Source: Silvibacterium dinghuense | GTDB lineage: Bacteria > Acidobacteriota > Terriglobia > Terriglobales > Acidobacteriaceae | Assembly: GCF_004123295.1 (NCBI RefSeq) | Contig: NZ_SDMK01000005.1 | Location: 62,001 to 126,000, forward strand | Direction of reading: 5' to 3' | DNA length: 64,000 bases | Shown: positions 31,054-57,963 of the stretch, piece by piece | How the letters are laid out: the number at the start of each line of letters is the position of its first letter | How positions within the stretch are numbered: position 1 is the stretch's first letter | Notes under the pieces: model-generated | The model's database searches: none | What the model was told of the DNA's origin: nothing | The model's input: only the letters and a program-made list of their open reading frames with translations | Position numbers and translations under genes: made by a program

Positions 31054-31122
31054 ATCGATGCTTCCGCAAAGGCCTGGGCTACACAAGAAAAGCTCCGCGC
31101 AAAGCAAACGATCATAGCCTAG

Positions 31123-31378
31123 GGCGTATCCACATAGAGCTGATATGAAACTAAAGAACTTGCCCTTATCGTTGTCATCCCGGCCGGAGCGCAGTGGAGG
31201 GACCTGCGTTTTTGTTTAGCCCGCAACACTCCAACTCGCGACCAACGGAAGCGGAGGCCGAAGGCACATTCGCCCTGCGCGCAGCAGAACCGCAGGTTTC
31301 TCCACTCCGCAGGACCACAAAACGGTCCTGCTCCGGTCGAAATGACAGCCTTTTACTAGCGCTCTATGGAGATACGGC
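31123..31378. mobile_element. 256-bp MITE-like element, copy 1
   Basis: Inverted ends GGCGTATCCACATAGAG (31123-31139) and CTCTATGGAGATACGGC (31362-31378) are 14 of 17 complementary. CTAG flanks both sides (31119-31122, 31379-31382). Inside are a second inverted pair (GTCATCCCGGCCGGAGC against CTCCGGTCGAAATGACA) and a copy of repeat module B near 31235. A near-identical element lies at 56068-56328. It encodes nothing. Confidence 0.82.
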
Positions 31379-31427
31379 CTAGGAAGAGGACAAGCTCGTC
31401 GGAAGATGAGATTTTGGGATCTGAAGA

Positions 31428-31503
31428 TGGTGGACGCGGTAGGAATCGAACCTACAACCTGTCGATTAAGAGTCGAATGCTCTGCCAGTTGAGCTACGCG
31501 TCC
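31428..31503 (-). tRNA. tRNA-Lys (CTT)
   Basis: The minus strand reads a complete cloverleaf: acceptor GGACGCG pairing with CGCGTCC, D-arm GCTC/GAGC, anticodon loop CTCTTAA with CTT at 34-36, variable region, T-arm with GGTTCGAATCC and an encoded CCA end (31428-31430). The T27-C43 pair in the anticodon stem is a mismatch; the other stems are intact. Confidence 0.95.
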
Positions 31504-31653
31504 AGATTGTGAGAAGCAACGCTTTACAGCGAAGGCTTTCGTTGGCCGGGAATCACTGTCGTGACTCAACCGCCTCTATGAATATAGCACAAAGTTTAGA
31601 TTGCGCCAGTCGCTCCGTGGAAAACCGGAAAGAAGCCTCTCGCGATGCTGCGA

Positions 31654-55938: not shown

Positions 55939-55940
55939 CT

Positions 55941-55990
55941 GCTCCGCGCAGGGCGGGACGCCTTCGGCCTCCGCTCCCTCCGGTCGCGAG
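55941..55990 (-). repeat. Repeat module B, solitary, inverted
   Basis: The stretch CTCCGCGCAGGGCGG to CTCCCTCCGGTCGCGAG is the reverse complement of module B (TCGCGACC...GGAGCGGAGGCCGAAGGCG). It lies three bases after the guaB stop codon. No module A is attached. Confidence 0.6.
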
Positions 55991-56056: not shown

Positions 56057-56067
56057 GAAGAAGCTAG

Positions 56068-56328
56068 GCCGTATCCACATAGAGATGGCCTGAAAAGAAA
56101 GAACTTACCTATATCGTTGTCATCCCGACCGGAGCGCAGCGGAGTGGAGGGACCTGCGTTTTTGTTTAGCCCGCAACACTCCAGCTCGCGACCCACGGAA
56201 GCGGAGGCCGAAGGCACATTCGCCCTCCGCGTAACAGAACCGCAGGTTTCTCCACTCCGCAAGACGATGAAACTGTCCTGCTCCGGTCGAAATGACAGCC
56301 TTTTACGATCGCTCTATGGGGATACACC
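56068..56328. mobile_element. 261-bp MITE-like element, copy 2
   Basis: Ends GCCGTATCCACATAGAG (56068-56084) and CTCTATGGGGATACACC (56312-56328) are inverted and nearly complementary. CTAG lies on both sides (56064-56067 and 56329-56332). The interior matches the element at 31123-31378 closely, including module B near 56186 and the inner GTCATCCCGACCGG/CCGGTCGAAATGAC pair. The right CTAG supplies the stop codon of the next gene. Confidence 0.82.
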
Positions 56329-57963
56329 CTAGATCGAAGACGAGAGTCTGGATGCCCATCCCTCGCTCTTCTTGCGTGCAATCACCCGCAGCTGCGTCTT
56401 CCAATCCTCACCCACGCCAACCACCTGCCATGGAATCTCCGGCGAGAGATGGGCCAGCACTGTATCTGTAGCCGGATGCACGCGCAGAATCGGCGACACG
56501 AGATAGAGCAGAGGCGGCGTCGCAGAGAGCTCCATCCCCTGGAAATATCCGTGGCTGGTCAGAGAGCCTTGTTGCTGCAGTTCCCTCACCCTCGCCCAGT
56601 AATCGAGCGATTGCAGCGGCAGCTGCAGGTCGTCGTCGGCCTTTACCTCAACAATGGCCAGCCGTCCCGAACGCGTGACCGCGAGCAGGTCGAGCAATCC
56701 GCGGTCTGCTGTGCCCATGGCTGCAACCTGTGTATAGATCGGCCCAGGACAGAGTGCGGTATCGATCTCCTCAAGATTCCGGCGGAGAACAGACTCAAGC
56801 CAGCGCTCCGGTTGCAGGCGGTAGAGCGGGTTCCGGCGATGATTTCCTGCCCGGCGATGCTCCCCGAGCTGCTGAATCAAGTCACAAAACAGAGCCTCGG
56901 TCTCGTCCGTCAGGGGAGTCTCGTTGGCTCCCGCGCCAAAGGTGATCTCATCCGTCGGAGCGAAGGAATGGCTGGAAAAACCCTGCCGCACCCTGGCAAA
57001 TTCCAGGCCGTGCAGCGCAAGCGATACCTCGGCCGGCGAGTTGGCACGCACCTCCGCGACCTCACGCAAACCCGGAGGCATCAGCCTGCTCAGGCGATCG
57101 AGCCCAGACTGGCAACGGTCGATAGCAGCCGCCGGATTGAAGGCATGCAGCAGCCTGGGTTCGGCCAGTCCGATCTCTGCCGGAGAAACGGAACAGCAGC
57201 CTTCGCTCTTTGCATCCACCGCATATAGCTCCCACGAAGCAATGCGCGGATGAAGCCATGCCAACCGCCGCCGGGTGAGCTGCTCCTGCCCCTCCGGGAC
57301 AAAGATCTTCAGTCCGGCCAGCACCGTGCGCCCGTTGCCGTGGGCCCGGCACCAGGCCAGCCAGAGAATGCCCAGCGTCAGGATGCCGTCAATGGTCGCC
57401 GGCGACTCCTCAGGCCCTGCGGCAATCACCGCCCACGCTGTCTGTCCCCGGCGCAGAAGGCCGCGCACATAGCCGGGGCCGAAGCTGTTTTCAAGGTCGG
57501 GCGCGGCAATCAGGCTATCGATCGCACACTCGGGAAACTCCCGGCACAGCAATCGCTCGAAGACGCGGAGAAATCGCTCGCGGAGGATACGCCGCGTCGA
57601 AGGCGCGCAGCGATCCCGGCCTGAAACCAGCTCGAGCACCTGCGGCTTTGACTGTCCGAGGCGCACGGTCTCGATGCGCAGCGAGTTCTTTCTTTCCCGC
57701 ACCGAGGAGACCGTCCGCACCAGGTTCCGCTCCTCGGACCACAGGTGCCAGAGACAGCGGCCACGTTCAGCGGTCAGAGAAAAGCGGGCAAGCTGCAGAT
57801 CGAAGAGGACGCGGCCATCCTCGAGCACCTGCGCCTGCGGATTCTCCAGCAGGAAATCATGGAGAAGGCGGACGATGGACGCCGCATCCTGAGAAGACAG
57901 CGCAGCCGCACGCGTGGCAAGAGAAGCCATGGCTGCGATCATGCGCAGCCATAAGGCGGGCAA
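56329..57963 (-). CDS. Unknown protein with a C-terminal PD-(D/E)XK-like domain
   Basis: 544 residues; the ATG at 57963 is used. The N-terminal 400 residues are not recognised, but are Arg-rich with VRLLHDFLLENPQAQVLEDG and ILRERFLRVFERLLCREFPE. The C-terminus has GLLDLLAVTRSGRLAIVEVK with Asp425, Glu439 and Lys441, followed by a Gln451 in PLQSLDYW: the D...ExK...Q pattern of the PD-(D/E)XK nuclease fold. It may be a DNA-acting nuclease. It follows the DinB gene by 23 bases. Its TAG stop is part of the CTAG flanking the adjacent MITE-like element. Confidence 0.75.
   Translation of the reverse strand: MPALWLRMIAAMASLATRAAALSSQDAASIVRLLHDFLLENPQAQVLEDGRVLFDLQLARFSLTAERGRCLWHLWSEERNLVRTVSSVRERKNSLRIETVRLGQSKPQVLELVSGRDRCAPSTRRILRERFLRVFERLLCREFPECAIDSLIAAPDLENSFGPGYVRGLLRRGQTAWAVIAAGPEESPATIDGILTLGILWLAWCRAHGNGRTVLAGLKIFVPEGQEQLTRRRLAWLHPRIASWELYAVDAKSEGCCSVSPAEIGLAEPRLLHAFNPAAAIDRCQSGLDRLSRLMPPGLREVAEVRANSPAEVSLALHGLEFARVRQGFSSHSFAPTDEITFGAGANETPLTDETEALFCDLIQQLGEHRRAGNHRRNPLYRLQPERWLESVLRRNLEEIDTALCPGPIYTQVAAMGTADRGLLDLLAVTRSGRLAIVEVKADDDLQLPLQSLDYWARVRELQQQGSLTSHGYFQGMELSATPPLLYLVSPILRVHPATDTVLAHLSPEIPWQVVGVGEDWKTQLRVIARKKSEGWASRLSSSI

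Follow-up and report, generated by a model that had tools for sequence, protein, structure and literature searches.

What kind of element is the 256-bp sequence at positions 31123-31378 of the window (the whole stretch of 64,000 nucleotides from Silvibacterium dinghuense that was analysed), which recurs in a 261-bp version at 56068-56328? Judging from its sequence and from that of its relatives, it is very probably a non-autonomous IS5-family MITE, moved by a transposase acting in trans and carrying a REPIN-like cargo. The two copies are composed as follows.

31119-31122, no strand: CTAG, putative left target duplication of copy 1 (flank read and pattern scan)
31123-31139, plus strand: left terminal inverted repeat of copy 1, GGCGTATCCACATAGAG (inverted-repeat and end-pattern scan)
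31140-31172, plus strand: left arm spacer of copy 1, class La (arm-class assignment)
31173-31208, plus strand: left REP unit of copy 1, TGTCATCCCGGCCGGAGC...GGACCTGCG
31235-31287, plus strand: module B in copy 1, a separate repeat (ends approximate)
31290-31347, minus strand: right REP unit of copy 1, in inverted orientation (left end approximate)
31348-31361, minus strand: right arm spacer of copy 1, class Ra (arm-class assignment)
31362-31378, minus strand: right terminal inverted repeat of copy 1
31379-31382, no strand: CTAG, putative right target duplication of copy 1
31428-31503, minus strand: tRNA-Lys(CTT), the closest gene to the right of copy 1
56064-56067, no strand: CTAG, putative left duplication of copy 2
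56068-56084, plus strand: left terminal inverted repeat of copy 2 (end-pattern scan)
56118-56158, plus strand: left REP unit of copy 2
56185-56237, plus strand: module B in copy 2 (ends approximate)
56240-56297, minus strand: right REP unit of copy 2 (left end approximate)
56312-56328, minus strand: right terminal inverted repeat of copy 2 (end-pattern scan)
56329-56332, no strand: CTAG, putative right duplication of copy 2; its minus-strand TAG is the stop of the ORF 56329-57963 (minus strand)

An earlier note on this DNA had described two CTAG-bracketed elements with inverted ends of about 17 bp, alike in ends and interior, devoid of coding capacity and composite through a second inverted pair and a module B, and this description is borne out. 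CTAG is present on all four sides, and the ends measure 17 bp; in copy 1 they form, with CTAG counted in, an inverted repeat of 23 nt that is 87% complementary. The end pattern CTAGGNYGTATCCMCATAKAG has four matches with up to three mismatches in the window, as compared with none in 100 shuffles, and the two copies align over their full length with 88% identity. The sole ORF of at least 90 aa touching copy 1 (31216-31569, minus strand) also crosses the tRNA-Lys gene, while no ORF of at least 90 aa lies over the interior of copy 2. The second inverted pair is real in both copies, comprising 31189-31214/31285-31310 and 31173-31190/31330-31347 in copy 1, as is module B, whose 30-nt core (31246-31275 and 56196-56225) is exact in both. 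The term composite is apt, as the element combines its ends with a REPIN-like repeat (the inner pair) and with a third repeat, module B, both of which also occur outside it. The tetranucleotide CTAG is rare in the window (25 observed vs 138 expected), so that the CTAG flanking of both copies is not trivial. This tetranucleotide is about five-fold under-represented, and of its 25 occurrences 5 are located at the stops of called genes and 17 have no overlap with any called gene.

The genome (5.1 Mb in nine contigs) contains many further copies with flanks of the CTAG type, as revealed by the BLAST check that the note had proposed: copy 1 gave 75 matches, the best other copy being 92% identical. 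A paired-end scan of the fetched loci yielded 41 pairs, two of which were discarded for overlap with another pair; the remaining 39 copies constitute a lower bound, since unpaired ends occur, 12 of 40 further REP loci have an end (at least 17/21), and end matches with two mismatches were only partly resolved (100 of 200). They span 111-474 bp, 34 of them falling between 193 and 324 bp. Being short, non-coding, multicopy and bounded by terminal inverted repeats, the element has the attributes of a MITE. No burst of near-identical copies is seen: the closest partner is 77-97% identical for 32 of the 39 copies (alignment over most of the length), and the other seven are without a partner. The spacers that separate the ends from the REPs were sorted by hand into classes, which are combined as La+Ra in 21 copies, Lb+Rb in four and Lc+Rc in three; seven copies have mixed arms (La+Lb and La+Rc twice each, La+Rb, Lb+Rd, and Lc+Rd once each), and four have an arm outside the classes. 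Such mixed combinations suggest that arms may have been exchanged between copies.

Copy 1 is predicted to fold into a single long hairpin (-121 kcal/mol, z -8.9), as expected from its nested inverted repeats. This high stability, as well as the stop codon at one or the other boundary of 20 of the 39 copies, would also suit a functional RNA or DNA structure (a terminator or a stabiliser of mRNA 3' ends) that was spread by recombination and not by transposition. The two ends of the same copy are, however, no more similar to each other (0.760) than the ends of different copies (0.759, sd 0.011), and the observed value is equalled or exceeded in 2333 of 5000 shuffles, which is as expected of transposase sites and not of a selected RNA stem. 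This absence of co-variation lowered the standing of the structural explanation, and the direct duplications, the IS5-type ends and the lack of these ends in eight congeners point to transposition; as the account of how the element arose, a spreading RNA or DNA structure is quite unlikely. A secondary structural role could exist beside transposition by an IS5-type enzyme.

The 4-bp motif YTAR is the target of the IS5 family. The flanking tetranucleotides of the 39 copies include an exact direct repeat in 17 cases, namely CTAG on both sides in 14, where a direct repeat is indistinguishable from an inverted one, and a non-palindromic repeat in three (CTAA..CTAA twice and CTGG..CTGG once); none has an exact repeat in inverted orientation only, and 22 have no exact repeat. 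Among the 78 ends, 43 are flanked by CTAG, 13 by TTAG or CTAA (read inward), and 22 by other tetranucleotides. The duplication of YTAR type that the note had assumed finds support here, as all three exact non-palindromic flanks are direct and most of the 78 ends adjoin CTAG, TTAG or CTAA. We infer that the flanking tetranucleotides represent such a duplication, which would have decayed in many copies. Insertion would have occurred into CTAG, less often into CTAA or TTAG, with duplication of the 4 bp. In two congeners (G006 and G001), the element is absent beside tRNA-Lys and guaB as judged by eye, tRNA-Lys identity being confirmed in the regions compared; the proteins by which these regions were located are 41-58% identical to those of the window, a divergence too great for an empty site to be read to the base, and no such site was seen.

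The origin of the ends is indicated by other genera. Among 398 genomes belonging to the same family, the end pattern was present, with up to one mismatch, in 37, the own genome included, and the reversed-pattern control over the same genomes gave one match (in G283). An 839-bp element (L164, in genome G234) and an 832-bp element (L189, in G350), both from other genera, match the pattern of the MITE ends on either side (0 mismatches). Two reading frames of L189 score 135.5 and 145.5 bits against NCBIfam transpos_IS5_3 (cut-off 110) and also exceed the cut-offs for Pfam DUF4096 and DDE_Tnp_1; L189 therefore contains an IS5-type DDE transposase between such ends. The first frame of L164 looks shifted, the domain libraries having been run on L189 only. 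The earlier assignment to the IS5 family, along with the proposed check for a transposase with the same ends, thus holds through L189, and the ends are common to an autonomous type of element through both loci in G350 and G234, none being found in the own genome. MITE L003 is identical to L164 at 22 of 22 terminal bases, and the resemblance of arm class La to the right end of the G350 element reaches as far as 32 bp (81-88%). Beyond these terminal regions, MITE and IS match over 17 bp at best, so that the interior is more than the remnant of a deleted transposase gene. Other species also contain short elements (154-355 bp) that have ends of this kind. With up to one mismatch, the ends are absent from all eight congeners searched, in which interior fragments alone matched; the link between MITE and IS consequently runs via other genera. 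An IS5-type DDE transposase, acting in trans, would have recognised the outer 17-bp repeats of the copies described here, and the source probably belonged to the IS427 group within the IS5 family, a name suggested by the two-frame gene. An exact-end scan of a named genome collection returned no stretches, and a fragment of the resident transposase matched one distant archaeal locus in that collection and no partner IS. Two further genomes (G310 and G417) contain IS5-type ends many times, often less than 200 bp from where a contig stops, a pattern that fits an IS in high copy number that may be active.

In the own genome, searches with two IS5-type Pfam families identified two loci, L062 and L063. 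The latter (809 bp, sequence partly masked) has CTAG at both ends and stop codons within its domain matches, and its ends correspond to the MITE ends in part only. In the former, the DDE match contains a stop and DUF4096 is not matched, for which reasons it is taken as truncated. Searches for IS5-type Pfam families and Y1 transposases in this assembly found no intact IS with the MITE ends. As both resident IS5 loci are broken or truncated, the MITE family is probably fossil, that is inactive, in this genome. At L063 (1200-1320 of the locus, contig C2 at about 640.6 kb), a single CTAG is common to a MITE-like arm and the left end of the broken IS5, which stand back to back as though the duplication of one element had been the insertion site of the other.

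The inner inverted pair consists of a REP-type unit, TGTCATYYCGRCCGGAGC...GGACCTGC. The genome has 249 matches to the REP core pattern at no more than one mismatch, as opposed to 0 for the reversed control. Among the 100 of these 249 sites that were listed, 47 lie within catalogued elements and 53 outside; 40 REP loci, representing most of the 53, include 12 with an end (at least 17/21) within 250 bp, while five inverted pairs and 23 other REPs are without one. In relatives, single or paired REPs without ends are likewise seen by eye. REP cores (at least 16/18) are present in 38 of the 39 own copies, at least two in 34 of them, and in 7 of 78 flanks. In other species, 18 MITEs with such ends from 14 genomes contain the core in ten cases, compared to 1 of 36 flanks (Fisher p 1.7e-5, an optimistic value as several of the 18 are close relatives of each other); a 19th, partly masked, is not in this count, and the ten come from seven genomes and five genera. 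The strict motif of module B is found in seven of the 39 copies and also outside them; one free module B lies in the window at 55939-55990, just past the guaB stop and in opposite orientation to the one in copy 2. The cargo is mainly a REPIN-like inverted REP pair, sometimes joined by module B, and does not represent simply a shrunken transposase gene. Eight of the 18 MITEs from other species lack the core at the threshold used, and five of these (L179, L184, L200, L206, and L207, from other genera), which have IS5-type ends, have in common a second, different interior of 264-355 bp.

The near-universal REP cores in the own copies, together with the REPs that stand without ends, could in principle indicate that the whole element is a RAYT-mobilised REPIN, its outer repeats being merely a long conserved surround. 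The outer ends, however, bound an IS5-family transposase in another genus, and the exact non-palindromic flanks are direct in every case. Moreover, the genome has one match for a Y1-type transposase (locus L061, contig C1 at about 2,075.7 kb), and its 3.3-kb locus contains no REP cores of the MITE type, so that the arrangement characteristic of RAYT-REPIN systems, in which the REP flanks the Y1-type transposase gene, is not found in this genome. The explanation by a RAYT was rejected because the sole Y1-type transposase found is located beside another repeat, and its probability is marginal. The repeat in question is a different palindrome, GCACGGCTTCAGCCGTGCC, which adjoins the gene, occurs once per strand in the locus, and is perhaps the REP of that transposase.

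The occurrence of REPs alone also bears on the possibility that a REP core was the target, into which an IS5-like element inserted and was then deleted, leaving its ends around the REP. Insertion of IS elements into REPs is known in other bacteria. In the copies described here, by contrast, the REP pair is enclosed by the ends, with the duplicated tetranucleotide outside them, and the order of end, spacer and REP is common to the copies, which makes this course of events improbable.

The resemblance to known systems is partial in each case. The fitting ends and the CTAG-type target are those of the IS5 family (NCBIfam transpos_IS5_3, Pfam DUF4096 and DDE_Tnp_1), whereas the MITE lacks a transposase and resembles these elements in the ends only, over a length of at most about 32 bp for one of the arm classes. 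Its size range, short terminal inverted repeats, non-coding nature, multiple copies and proximity to genes are shared with bacterial MITEs such as RUP, NEMIS, and Nezha, from which it differs in the REP-type inverted-pair cargo recurring in other species and in the modular arm classes, as far as the available part of the source describes them (PMC3733652). The inverted pair of short units, which also occurs outside the MITE and in relatives, is a feature of REPINs and REP elements according to portions of the same text (PMC3733652); here, by contrast, no such REP lies beside the sole Y1-type transposase found, and many copies reside inside an IS5-type MITE. The mosaic Tn3-derived TIMEs are equally non-autonomous and proposed to move in trans, but they depend on another transposase family and, in the accessible sections of the source, have duplications of 5-6 bp and repeats of 38 bp (PMC4133298).

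The MITE family appears to be new, and its REP cargo is recurrent in other species; this recurrent cargo and the positions at stop codons are the unusual parts of an element that is otherwise ordinary in kind. A literature search among open-licence papers, by titles and the openings of abstracts, returned no description of this element family, a negative of little weight given that restriction, and the main text of a MITE review (PMC10969869) contains none of the terms CTAG, REPIN, 'stop codon' or 'acidobacteri'. A more tentative and rather doubtful extension is that REPs lacking a transposase of their own have been repeatedly packaged in IS5-type MITEs across the family and are spread by the IS5 transposase, often behind stops. 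How REPs without a dedicated transposase spread is an open question, stated for the CGTC class in the part of the source available (PMC3733652), and a REP-carrying MITE that uses a well-known type of transposase would constitute a concrete, testable vehicle for this spread.

With gene positions taken from a simple codon-usage caller and uncurated, none of the 39 copies lies inside a called gene, and the stop of a neighbouring gene falls within the flanking tetranucleotide in 20. Non-coding CTAG sites that lie apart from element ends in the fetched DNA of this genome coincide with a stop 18 times among 72 (p = 0.005 per copy), and the addition of CTAA and TTAG gives 53 of 236 (p = 0.0003), a background drawn largely from loci fetched around elements, so that the size of the excess is uncertain. 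Counted per site, 19 of 59 CTAG beside an end are at stops, which is a smaller excess; in this count, usually only one of a copy's two tetranucleotides can be at a stop. On a stop codon of the host, the duplicated tetranucleotide would leave the gene end intact, and such harmlessness might explain the positions observed. These positions suggest a way in which a CTAG-targeting transposon could increase in number in a compact genome while causing little harm.

A comparable relation to the stop codon is seen in the transposase genes. In ISPsp10, a member of the IS427 group, the stop (TAA) is reported to be supplied by the target, according to the accessible portion of the source (PMC4133298). In the IS relatives of the MITE, a frame on the transposase strand ends on the TAG of the terminal CTAG, being open over at least 150 aa in five of seven copies and over 78 and 49 aa in the others; openness alone is no proof, as a frame on the opposite strand of L164 is open over 163 aa. 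Shared C-terminal residues are what establishes that the transposase frame runs into the TAG of the target.
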